Shown: positions 32,256 to 35,686, numbered from the stretch's first letter. The stretch is DNA of 38,672 nt from Ignavibacteriota bacterium (GCA_016218085.1 JACREY010000002.1:1-38672); one strand, 5' to 3'. Notes: generated by a model from the letters alone, not told the origin. Program-made: numbers and translations.

Positions 32256-33197
32256 ATGAAAAATCAAAACAGACGGGATTTTCTCAAAACAGCCGCAGGA
32301 ATCGGTGCCTCAATAGGCATTGCGGGTTCTGTTAAACCTGCAAAAGCTTCCGAGAAAACACTTTCGGATGACCGTTTCGGAATCCTTGTTGATACCGATG
32401 TCTGTGTTGGCTGCCGTCATTGCGAATGGGCCTGCCGCGTGGCTCATAATATTCCGACTCCTGACCTGGATACTTACTCGGATAATTCTGTCTTCAAAGA
32501 ATATAGGCGCACAGATGCATCTTCCTTAACGGTTGTCAACGAGTTTGAAAACGAAAAAAATTCGGCTATGCCTGTTCACGTTAAAACCCAATGTATGCAT
32601 TGCGAGCACCCTGCTTGTGTTTCTGCTTGCATCGTCGGCGCATTTTCAAAGCTCGAAGATGGAAGCGTCGTTTGGGACGGGGATAAATGTATTGGCTGCC
32701 GATACTGCATGGTCGCTTGCCCGTTCCAGATCCCAACCTACGACTATGACAGGTCAATCGATCCGCAAATCAGAAAATGTGATTTATGCTTCGAAAAAAG
32801 AAAAACAGAAAAGCTTCCTGCATGTGTAAACATCTGCCCCAATGAAGCCTTGCTTTTCGGCAAGCGCGATGATATTGTCCGAATTGCAAAAAGCAGAATT
32901 AAAAGAAAATACGACGTTTATATTGATCATATATATGGCGAAAAGGAAATCGGGGGTACTTCCTGGATGTATATTGCAGGCAAGGATTTTGAAAAACTGA
33001 AGCTGCCTAAACTGAACTATTCCCCGGCTCCCGGTATCTCTGAATCCATTCAGCACGGAATCTTTGCATACTTCGTACCGCCTGTAACCCTTTATGCGCT
33101 GCTCGGAACGATTATGTGGATTACAAGAAAAAAGAAAGGCGATGATAGCGAAATAAAAGATGAAACAAATCAGGATAAGAAAGGAGGCGCATTATGA
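32256..33197 (+). CDS. Tat-exported, membrane-anchored ferredoxin with four [4Fe-4S] clusters (HybA/DmsB type)
   Basis: 313 residues. A twin-arginine signal (NRRDFLKTAAGIGAS) sends the folded protein to the periplasmic side. Sixteen cysteines in four groups match four [4Fe-4S] clusters: C50/53/56/60, C113/116/121/125, C145/148/151/155 and C175/178/190/194. A C-terminal membrane helix (about 268-290) anchors it, as in HybA. Family members carry electrons between an NrfD-type quinol-binding subunit and a partner. Here the next gene is that NrfD subunit (ATGA overlap), and a multihaem cytochrome follows, so electrons probably pass menaquinol - FeS - haem or the reverse. No molybdopterin or hydrogenase subunit is present. 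Confidence 0.94.
   Translation: MKNQNRRDFLKTAAGIGASIGIAGSVKPAKASEKTLSDDRFGILVDTDVCVGCRHCEWACRVAHNIPTPDLDTYSDNSVFKEYRRTDASSLTVVNEFENEKNSAMPVHVKTQCMHCEHPACVSACIVGAFSKLEDGSVVWDGDKCIGCRYCMVACPFQIPTYDYDRSIDPQIRKCDLCFEKRKTEKLPACVNICPNEALLFGKRDDIVRIAKSRIKRKYDVYIDHIYGEKEIGGTSWMYIAGKDFEKLKLPKLNYSPAPGISESIQHGIFAYFVPPVTLYALLGTIMWITRKKKGDDSEIKDETNQDKKGGAL
33181..33187 (+). promoter_or_regulatory. Strong Shine-Dalgarno site for the NrfD gene
   Basis: AAGGAGG sits six bases before the ATG at 33194, inside the end of the ferredoxin gene. It supports 33194 over 33197 as the start. Confidence 0.8.
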
Positions 33198-34435
33198 TGA
33201 TACCCTGGCCTGTGAAACACCGCTTCTTAACTCCCGGTGTTTTCGTGTTAATCCTTATTGCCTTAAACGGACTTGTGTTCTTGGGAATAAGATTTATCAG
33301 CGGAATCGGTGCCGTTACAAATCTGAATGACTATACTCCGTGGGGACTCTGGATAGGCGTTGATGTGGGAGCAGGAGTTGCACTTGCTGCTGGTGGATTT
33401 ACTTCCGCTGCTCTCGGACACATTATGCACCGTGAACATTATCACGCAATCGTCCGCCCCGCACTCCTGACCGCAATGCTCGGATATACGTTCGTTGCAT
33501 TCGCGGTTTTTACCGATATCGGTCGCTTTTATTACATATGGCACCCGCTGATAATGTGGAACGGAACGTCTGCTCTGTTCGAAGTAGGTATTTGCGTTAT
33601 GATTTATATGTCCGTTCTCTACATAGAATTCATGCCGATTGTAACGGAAAGATTTATCGGCAGGGTTGACCTTCCGGATTTTATTTCTTTCCTTAATAAA
33701 CCTGTCGATAGATTTTTAAGATATATTGACAGCCGCCTTGCATTAACAATGTTTATATTTATAATTGCAGGTGTTGTCCTCTCAACCCTGCATCAGTCTT
33801 CACTGGGAACCCTGATGGTAATTGCAGGACAGAAGATGCATCCCCTCTGGCAAACACCCATTCTTCCGCTTTTATTCCTGCTTTCCGCAATAGCAGTCGG
33901 TTTTCCGATGATAATGTTTGAATCACTTTTAGCTTCACGCAGTTTCAAAATTAAACCCGAGATGCACATCCTTTCAAGACTCGGTGTTATGATGTCTCCG
34001 ATACTCGGTGTCTATATAGCAGCTAAAATCGGAGATTTATTTATCCGCGAAACTTTCAAATACATTGCCCCGCTCGACGGCACTGCCTGGATGTTTATAG
34101 TCGAAATGGCATTAATAATTATTCCCTTTTTCCTTTTCCTTTCAAAAAAGATTACAAATTCCGTACTCGGATTGTTTATTGCTTCGGCATTTGTAATTGC
34201 CGGGGTGCTGGTAAACAGAATCAATAATTTCGTTGTAGCCTACAGGCCGTTCTTCAACCCGGTCGAATATTTTCCGTCTTTCGGTGAAATTTCGGTTACA
34301 CTCGGATGCATTGCCATGCTCGTGCTCGTTTACAGGGCGATAGTAATGATATTTCCCGTAATTACACAGGACAGGAAAGATGTTTATAACAAAATGATTG
34401 AACTCGATAAATCGGGTCCAAGGAGGTGGATATGA
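33194..34435 (+). CDS. NrfD/HybB-family integral membrane quinol-interacting subunit
   Basis: 413 residues with about nine to ten membrane helices. The N-terminal part carries HybB/NrfD hallmarks: a YTPWGLWIGVDVGAGVALAAGG helix, a HIMHREHYH histidine-rich loop, and later TLHQSSLGTLMVIA, all typical of the HybB branch. The family has no haem or metal of its own; it binds menaquinol in the membrane and couples to an FeS partner. It overlaps the ferredoxin gene (ATGA) and the cytochrome gene (ATGA), so the three are translationally coupled and probably form one complex. Confidence 0.93.
   Translation: MMIPWPVKHRFLTPGVFVLILIALNGLVFLGIRFISGIGAVTNLNDYTPWGLWIGVDVGAGVALAAGGFTSAALGHIMHREHYHAIVRPALLTAMLGYTFVAFAVFTDIGRFYYIWHPLIMWNGTSALFEVGICVMIYMSVLYIEFMPIVTERFIGRVDLPDFISFLNKPVDRFLRYIDSRLALTMFIFIIAGVVLSTLHQSSLGTLMVIAGQKMHPLWQTPILPLLFLLSAIAVGFPMIMFESLLASRSFKIKPEMHILSRLGVMMSPILGVYIAAKIGDLFIRETFKYIAPLDGTAWMFIVEMALIIIPFFLFLSKKITNSVLGLFIASAFVIAGVLVNRINNFVVAYRPFFNPVEYFPSFGEISVTLGCIAMLVLVYRAIVMIFPVITQDRKDVYNKMIELDKSGPRRWI
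34421..34426 (+). promoter_or_regulatory. Shine-Dalgarno site that decides the cytochrome start
   Basis: AGGAGG, inside AAGGAGGTG, is an exact complement to the 16S rRNA tail and lies five bases before the ATG at 34432. It rules out the GTG at 34426. Confidence 0.85.
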
Positions 34436-35631
34436 AAAAAACAATATTAATAATTTCGCCCTTATTAGTCATATGTGCGTTTGCAATATCGACTTTATTT
34501 TCTCAAAATAAACATCAGGGATTAAATGAAACCGTCGATAAATTAAATCGGAATGTCGTTGTTTCCGGCAAAAAGGATGACCCTTTAACAGAGAAAATCA
34601 GTTGCAAGACCTGCCACGTTACAGAGTATCCGACAAGGAAAGACCCTGGTTTAAGAAGCTGCCCCAGAGATAAAATGCTATCGGGTTTTCCTTCATCTAA
34701 AACCGGTCCTGACGTAGTGGTAATTAACGAAATGTCTGAAAACTATTCAGGTGTCAGATTCTCGCACGGATTGCATTCACAGATGTCGGAAATGTCTCTT
34801 GGCTGTGTGGATTGTCACCATTATAATATATCAACAGAAGAAATCTTAAAATGTAGCGATTGCCACAACAAAAATCGTTCACGAGAAGAAGTTTCCGTAC
34901 CCGATTTAAAATCTGCTTTCCACAGGCAATGCATGATGTGTCATAAACAATGGAGCCATGATAACGGATGCAACTCCCAGTGCCACGTAAGAAAAGGACA
35001 GGAAAATAATCTTGTACAAAAAGATTTTACAGGAAAAATTCATCCGAAACAAAAAGAGCCCGAAAAAATGATTTGGGAAACAAATTACGAAAAGGGAAAA
35101 ATCGTAACATTCTTCCATGACGAGCATATCCAGTTGTTTAAGATAAACTGTAAATCCTGTCACGGTAATGATAAGTGTGTGAAATGTCACGATAAACCAC
35201 TACAACCGACTGATTACAGCAAACCTATTCACCGGAAAAAATCGTTTGAAGAACACCACATGCCCTGCTTGAATTGTCACAAGAGTGAAAACTGCCAGAA
35301 GTGTCACAGAGACCAGGAAATGACTCCGTTTAATCACGGCAAGTCAACAGGCTGGATTTTAAAATCATATCACAGCCAGTTGGCCTGCGAAAAATGCCAC
35401 GGCGGACAGATGCCCGTGAAAAAAATAGACAGGAACTGCAGCAGCTGTCACAAGAATTTCCTGCCGGGAAAATTCGAGCACAAAAAGACAGGATTTGTTC
35501 TTTCGGAAACCCATAAAGATATGGAGTGCAAAAGTTGCCACGCAAATAATGACTTTGCAAAGAATCCGGATTGCAAGGAGTGCCACGACGATAAATCTTT
35601 CCCGTCTCAGTTGCCCGGAAAAAGAAAGTAA
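34432..35631 (+). CDS. Periplasmic 13-haem c-type cytochrome
   Basis: 399 residues. The N-terminal hydrophobic stretch (MKKTILIISPLLVICAFAIS) is a signal peptide or anchor. Haem motifs: twelve CXXCH at C58, C125, C141, C167, C240, C249, C279, C288, C319, C336, C366 and C381, plus one unusual CX3CH (CNSQCH at C180), thirteen in all. Many extra His residues (FSHGLHSQ, FFHDEH, FNHGKS, FEHKKT, SETHKD) can serve as distal ligands, so most haems are probably bis-His. The haem spacing resembles Hmc/NrfB/Dsr-type electron wires. It is coupled to the NrfD gene by an ATGA overlap and ends at a strong terminator. It probably passes electrons from the quinol module to periplasmic or outer-membrane partners; the final partner is not encoded here. 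Confidence 0.93.
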   Translation: MKKTILIISPLLVICAFAISTLFSQNKHQGLNETVDKLNRNVVVSGKKDDPLTEKISCKTCHVTEYPTRKDPGLRSCPRDKMLSGFPSSKTGPDVVVINEMSENYSGVRFSHGLHSQMSEMSLGCVDCHHYNISTEEILKCSDCHNKNRSREEVSVPDLKSAFHRQCMMCHKQWSHDNGCNSQCHVRKGQENNLVQKDFTGKIHPKQKEPEKMIWETNYEKGKIVTFFHDEHIQLFKINCKSCHGNDKCVKCHDKPLQPTDYSKPIHRKKSFEEHHMPCLNCHKSENCQKCHRDQEMTPFNHGKSTGWILKSYHSQLACEKCHGGQMPVKKIDRNCSSCHKNFLPGKFEHKKTGFVLSETHKDMECKSCHANNDFAKNPDCKECHDDKSFPSQLPGKRK

Positions 35632-35650
35632 GAACAAAATAAAAAGAACA

Positions 35651-35686
35651 AAAACCCGGTAAAGAATTTTTTTTCCGGGTTTTTTA
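35651..35686 (+). terminator. Intrinsic terminator of the redox operon
   Basis: Perfect 9-bp stem AAAACCCGG/CCGGGTTTT (35651-35659 with 35675-35683) followed by a T run. Confidence 0.93.

Follow-up and report, generated by a model that had tools for sequence, protein, structure and literature searches.

Few protein families are known to link the quinone pool to extracellular electron transfer (CymA, CbcL, ImcH). Here, a candidate for a further quinone-cytochrome link is described in a stretch of 38,672 nucleotides from an Ignavibacteriota bacterium (GCA_016218085.1 JACREY010000002.1:1-38672; the whole stretch is called the window). Three consecutive genes, referred to as the trio, encode a four-cluster iron-sulfur (FeS) ferredoxin with a twin-arginine translocation (Tat) signal, an NrfD/HybB-type membrane subunit and a 13-haem c-type cytochrome. 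With a probability of roughly 0.6, the trio forms one inner-membrane menaquinol:periplasmic-cytochrome oxidoreductase that would feed extracellular or periplasmic electron transfer. It is carried by about a quarter of the sampled Ignavibacteria genomes and by metagenome-assembled genomes (MAGs) of several phyla, and the energy coupling of its family is under active study.

Among the described systems, the HybA-HybB pair of hydrogenase-2 (HybOABC) shares with the trio a Tat tail-anchored four-cluster FeS subunit and a HybB-type membrane subunit with its functional residues kept; however, the trio has neither HybO nor HybC, carries the 13-haem cytochrome in the place of the hydrogenase, and scores below the HybB and HybA cut-offs. 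Similarly, the Hmc (HmcABCDEF) and Nhc (NhcABCD) complexes of sulfate reducers contain an HmcB-like FeS protein, an NrfD-like subunit and a multihaem cytochrome with a homologous c3 domain, but their cytochrome gene comes first and accounts for 16 (Hmc) or 9 (Nhc) haems, whereas that of the trio comes last and accounts for 13; the unusual gene order and haem number claimed in the original prediction are borne out. In addition, the trio unit has only these three genes and contains no HmcD-F or NhcD, its NrfD lies outside the Hmc/Nhc clade, and the NhcA/Nhc profile NF045784 yields 27.6 bits against a cut-off of 640. Qrc differs in that the trio unit holds no Mo-type (QrcB-like) gene and its NrfD falls outside the QrcD clade. 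E. coli NrfBCD also combines cytochrome, FeS and NrfD subunits without a Mo enzyme, but its gene order differs, its NrfD reaches only 34 bits against a HybB-type profile built here, and neither the pentahaem NrfB nor NrfA adjoins the trio. Geobacter Cbc4 (CbcSTU), compared by description, likewise unites a c-type cytochrome, an Fe-S protein and a membrane subunit in a proposed quinol-cytochrome role, but has a cytochrome-first gene-name order, and its CbcT is grouped with SirC and DsrO (PMC11434368). The likeness to known quinol modules proposed earlier stands for the Hmc/Nhc cytochrome domain but not for NrfBCD and Dsr, whose profiles (NrfD, DsrP) did not match the trio NrfD at E ≤ 1e-3, only HybB, HmcC and QrcD doing so; the nearest description is HybA/HybB plus an Hmc/Nhc domain. 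Judged from sequence, and with Geobacter Cbc compared by description only, the trio appears to be a distinct branch of a known family rather than wholly new.

The trio was partly foreshadowed by the 2013 genome paper on Melioribacter roseus, a member of the same class, in which an NrfC/NrfD pair (Mros1572/1571) without a molybdopterin subunit was proposed to feed periplasmic multihaem cytochromes (PMC3534657). The passages on this pair name no adjoining 13-haem cytochrome, and Mros1571/1572 are likened to the trio by description, not matched to it (PMC3534657). MAGs labelled M. roseus (L099, L103) do carry the trio. In a review of NrfD-like subunits, a few genes in Bacteroidetes and Chlorobi are labelled NhcC (PMC8076601), and these may include trio copies. 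A search confined to open-access literature turned up no account of the trio, of its 13-haem cytochrome or of the clade.

Conservation of the trio and the NrfD clade

A conserved trio was indeed found when 391 genomes of the class Ignavibacteria were sampled. Relatives of the NrfD subunit at E ≤ 1e-20 are present in 222 genomes and close orthologues (E ≤ 1e-100, identity mostly 61-82%) in 96; a second group of relatives shows 40-46% identity. Among the examined Ignavibacteria loci whose adjoining cytochrome gene is complete, nearly all keep the order FeS-NrfD-13-haem cytochrome. The trio is not confined to this class: in a scan of named genomes, in which loci were chosen by NrfD similarity alone, the identical order with a 13-haem cytochrome was found in MAGs labelled Zixibacteria, Holophagae, Omnitrophota, Bdellovibrionales and Planctomycetota, although such labels may be erroneous, as for a 'Desulfuromonadales' MAG (L095) with an Ignavibacteria-like copy. 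The haem number differs at two Calditrichota loci (9 and 11) and at a single planctomycete locus (21 haem motifs and one CX3CH). The viral contigs searched held no relatives.

Two NrfD trees, a quick one of 120 rows and a careful one of 79 rows, were built with references from E. coli, plasmid-collection records and those Desulfobacterota genomes that gave matches to HmcC, NhcA or QrcD. Trio-type NrfD forms one clade, with a Shimodaira-Hasegawa-like approximate likelihood ratio test (SH-aLRT) value of 100 in the quick tree and bootstrap/SH-aLRT values of 100/99 in the careful tree. Its sister group is hydrogenase HybB, and the clade uniting the two has 100/98. Both the Hmc/Nhc clade (100/100) and QrcD (100/100) stand apart from the trio clade; NhcC (L198, beside a 650-bit NhcA) falls in the Hmc clade, and the true HybB of the class (L038, L039) lies outside the trio clade. 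Since HmcC, a QrcD-like protein and trio NrfD coexist in the genome of Desulfosarcina alkanivorans (G391), they represent paralogous systems. In most members of the trio clade the partner is a 13-haem cytochrome, and in some Desulfobacterota it is a tetrahaem cytochrome (L246), an octahaem tetrathionate-reductase (OTR)-type cytochrome (L123; probably L248) or an Hmc-like cytochrome with 16-17 haems (L249, L251). Because the partners vary within the clade, it can be regarded as a single HybAB-like chassis with exchangeable haem modules. At the two Hmc-like loci (L249:2758-6628 and L251:2654-6741), the cytochrome lies 5' of the trio-type NrfD, the partners having been swapped within the clade. 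As a side observation, four records of the plasmid collection (H8, H9, H10, H13), of 4-5 Mb and with hyb genes, resemble misfiled chromosomes rather than plasmids.

Subunits and operon structure

The NrfD subunit has 413 amino acids and about 9-10 transmembrane segments, and belongs to the NrfD/PsrC-like quinone-interacting superfamily (PF03916, 63 bits, cut-off 25.8). Its best profile is HybB (337.8 bits), below the cut-off of 450; HmcC (270 bits, cut-off 550) and QrcD (96.6 bits, cut-off 570) also stay below theirs. The residues D58, R89, Y99, S129, E148 and H184 of E. coli HybB correspond to D57, R88, Y98, S126, E145 and H200, and all six are invariant in a 13-sequence alignment; in HybB they have roles in quinone and proton chemistry, S129 not being essential (PMC8076601, PMC13059093). 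In a Foldseek search with a model of a relative (L119), the NrfD fold resembles ActC (6btm_C, TMt 0.65) and PsrC (2vpw_C), and a PDB search with a single NrfD sequence found nothing. The ferredoxin has 313 amino acids. Its Tat signal reads RRDFLK, its cysteines number exactly 16 and have the spacing of four [4Fe-4S] clusters, and a C-terminal tail anchor lies at residues about 269-287. Its best profiles, HmcB (325.7 bits, cut-off 420) and HybA (255.3 bits, cut-off 263), are both below cut-off.

The cytochrome carries 12 CXXCH motifs and one CX3CH (CNSQCH), giving 13 haem motifs, and its N-terminus is a Sec signal or an anchor. The segment of haems 2-5 resembles the domain that ends HmcA and NhcA, with E about 1e-30 in the profile search and a Foldseek probability of 1.0, and profile and fold searches concordantly liken the C-terminal part to c7-type cytochromes such as GSU1996. 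An alignment of 41 sequences was made; these had been picked for 12-14 haems, so the haem number in it is not independent evidence. Exactly 12 non-proximal His residues are conserved and would serve 12 of the haems, at positions 112, 115, 130 and 164 in the c3 part and at 204, 229, 232, 276, 302, 314, 350 and 361 after it, and haem 1 has no conserved distal His. Cys77 and Met118 are the sole invariant Cys and Met outside the motifs, and Cys64 and Cys73 are both present in 28 sequences and both absent in 13, the pattern expected of a disulfide. It is worth stressing that the cytochrome thereby offers a sharp prediction on one unusual haem, namely that haem 1 would be ligated by His62/Cys77.

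The coordinates and gene calls confirm the claimed ATGA overlaps at both joints of the trio (Table 1), and the cytochrome starts at ATG 34432 (399 amino acids), not at the mechanically listed GTG 34426. Strong Shine-Dalgarno sites are rare in the window, as had been stated: only 2 of the 20 starts checked, those of the NrfD and cytochrome genes, have a match of at least 7 nucleotides, and one other (15535) has 6, the window being poor in such sites. Among 99 related trio loci, which include some genomes twice, an NTGA overlap is kept at the NrfD/cytochrome joint in about 60% and at the FeS/NrfD joint in about 54%, and this retention indicates that the coupling is not due to chance. A promoter scan gave a result no better than chance. 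The open reading frames (ORFs) of the window showed neither a molybdopterin nor a hydrogenase gene, consistent with the set as first described.

Table 1. Features of the trio operon (positions in the window)
Feature	Position	Strand	Basis or remark
Tat four-cluster ferredoxin gene (HybA/HmcB-type, periplasmic)	32256..33197	+	gene call, profile matches
Shine-Dalgarno AAAGGAGG of NrfD gene, within ferredoxin gene	33180..33187	+	spacer 6
ATGA stop/start overlap, ferredoxin-NrfD	33194..33197	+	
NrfD gene, HybB-type NrfD/PsrC-like membrane subunit	33194..34435	+	gene call, profiles, alignment, trees, fold
Shine-Dalgarno AAGGAGGTG of cytochrome gene	34420..34428	+	spacer 3
ATGA stop/start overlap, NrfD-cytochrome	34432..34435	+	
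13-haem c-type cytochrome gene	34432..35631	+	gene call, haem motifs, profiles
Haem-1 segment CKTCH...PT..DP.L..CPR, with invariant non-haem Cys77 (codon 34660-34662)	34603..34668	+	41-sequence alignment
Tetrahaem c3 domain, haems 2-5, homologous to last HmcA/NhcA domain	34708..34992	+	profile and fold searches
Eight C-terminal haems, cytochrome c7/GSU1996-like	35149..35586	+	profile search
Intrinsic-terminator-like hairpin 3' of operon	about 35650..35684	+	-16.9 kcal/mol, z = -3.1

Electron route and its direction

Natural fusions in relatives, namely an FeS-NrfD protein of 708 amino acids with FeS motifs present (L119) and NrfD-cytochrome single ORFs of about 1100 amino acids at four Desulfobacterota loci, argue for a single complex. 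We infer its assembly in the Ignavibacteriota source organism, together with the route, direction and final acceptor of the electrons. Menaquinol would be bound by the HybB-like NrfD near the periplasmic face, and its electrons would travel by way of the four [4Fe-4S] clusters in the tail-anchored ferredoxin to the c3-type haem domain, and on along the eight C-terminal haems to cytochromes of the periplasm or outer membrane. The conserved channel residues of NrfD may couple this route to proton transfer into or out of the cytoplasm. Since NrfD and cytochrome are fused in the Desulfobacterota subclade, the c3-type haem domain adjoins NrfD there. Trio-type NrfD of Desulfobacterota is wired to OTR-family cytochromes (TIGR04315, 443-531 bits), a sign of electron output toward periplasmic acceptors.

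The fusion ORFs (L118:1756-5070, L120:5986-9309, L149:5977-9240 and L228:4616-7861) consist of NrfD, a c3-like haem domain and an OTR-family domain, the last profile-checked in L118. In L228 the ORF is followed by a 730-amino-acid Tat protein and another FeS protein, with similar-sized genes in L118 and L120. A further candidate FeS-NrfD fusion (L116) was dropped, having no FeS motifs. The 5-haem and 8-haem ORFs of Desulfobacterota were rejected as a split 13-haem cytochrome, as the second belongs to the OTR family (TIGR04315); the agreement 5 + 8 = 13 is therefore partly coincidence, and their alignment with the cytochrome of the window is forced beyond the c3 domain.

A role in periplasmic or extracellular electron transfer, as originally proposed, fits the module, which may work by quinol oxidation or by quinone reduction. 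Several points weigh against a menaquinol-oxidizing complex: no outer-membrane conduit adjoins the trio; the cytochrome fusions belong to a Desulfobacterota subclade with a different, OTR-family C-terminal haem domain; the FeS half of the structure model of the L119 fusion is poor, probably because of badly aligned rows; and the nearest relatives, HybB, Qrc (QrcD) and Nhc/Hmc (NhcC, HmcC), are described as quinone reductases fed by periplasmic donors (PMC8076601, PMC13059093). Because these are the nearest biochemically studied relatives, the reverse direction, in which donors outside the cell or in the periplasm reduce periplasmic cytochromes and these pass the electrons on to menaquinone, as in Nhc, Hmc and Qrc, keeps a substantial probability, although it is the less likely course. 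Such a complex would be electrogenic, as protons would be taken up from the cytoplasm, and the c3 domain of HmcA/NhcA type and the invariance in trio NrfD of channel residues important for quinone reduction are consistent with it. On the other hand, the OTR-family wiring in Desulfobacterota points to output, the source genome has no NiFe hydrogenase, and across the class NiFe hydrogenase, present in 11 of 96 trio genomes, is not associated with the trio (odds ratio 0.78, p = 0.61). The lack of a hydrogenase also bears on the idea that the trio is the HybA-HybB membrane arm of an uptake hydrogenase with catalytic subunits encoded elsewhere. HybB is its best NrfD profile and its sister clade, but the score is under the cut-off, genuine HybB of Ignavibacteria falls outside the trio clade, and the sole PF00374 match in the whole genome lies in a 502-amino-acid ORF and is limited to profile positions 1-79, as is the pattern for NuoD of complex I. 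With this NuoD-type match only, and no co-occurrence across the 391 genomes, a hydrogenase arm is largely refuted and highly improbable.

His/Cys haems occur in the sulfur enzymes SoxA, TsdA and DsrJ. The cytochrome could by analogy itself be a terminal enzyme, acting on a small, perhaps sulfur, substrate at a His/Cys-ligated or open-site haem 1, and the 13 haems set against 12 conserved non-proximal His, the invariance of Cys77 and Met118 and the loss of Cys64 and Cys73 only as a pair agree with this. However, Cys77 may be structural, the haem-1 ligand could be Met118 or a non-conserved His, and catalytic family profiles were unmatched, which makes an enzymatic role unlikely. The menaquinol:cytochrome oxidoreductase reading is preferred.

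In the same genome, a cluster (L232:8696-17603, G000:C8) encodes five cytochromes, with 18, 17, 14, 4 and 4 haems, together with a b561-type protein and a 434-amino-acid porin-sized product. It is a likely electron conduit and perhaps a partner of the trio, plausible but unlinked.

Haem-c kinases and further NrfD loci

In many relatives, genes for a histidine kinase and for response regulators fused to GcvH/lipoyl domains lie 3' of the trio. The periplasmic sensor domain of the kinase carries CXXCH in 48 of 48 and CX4CH in 47 of 48 sequences. Loci with trio and haem-c kinase are L046:3-3872, L041, L042, L044, L045, L047, L050, L067, L068, L072, L073, L075, L079, L112 and L127. No such kinase is found beside the trio of the window or in the examined loci of its family. 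Where the kinase adjoins the trio, the arrangement suggests that redox sensing is tied to the quinone-cytochrome module. A cross-phylum complex in which a HybAB-like quinone module has its catalytic partner replaced by a 13-haem cytochrome with one His/Cys haem, with redox signalling via the adjoining haem-c kinases and GcvH-fused regulators in many relatives, can be advanced only tentatively, and taken as a whole is rather doubtful.

A second NrfD paralogue (L031:878-7727, L067:911-7922, L040, L036) lies in a locus encoding a GcvH-like membrane protein, an FeS protein, NrfD, an uncharacterised protein, a haem-c kinase and a sigma-54 regulator. The FeS protein, having no Tat signal, is probably on the cytoplasmic side. 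The source genome (L063:6966-11457, G000:C14) has kept the GcvH-like protein, the uncharacterised protein, the haem-c kinase (CIMCH, CYTSECH) and the sigma-54 regulator, while the FeS and NrfD genes of this second locus are absent. Elsewhere in that genome (L061:9234-12990, G000:C8), a second NrfD-family gene stands beside those for an FeS protein and a 737-amino-acid Tat protein that is molybdopterin oxidoreductase-like (Psr-like).

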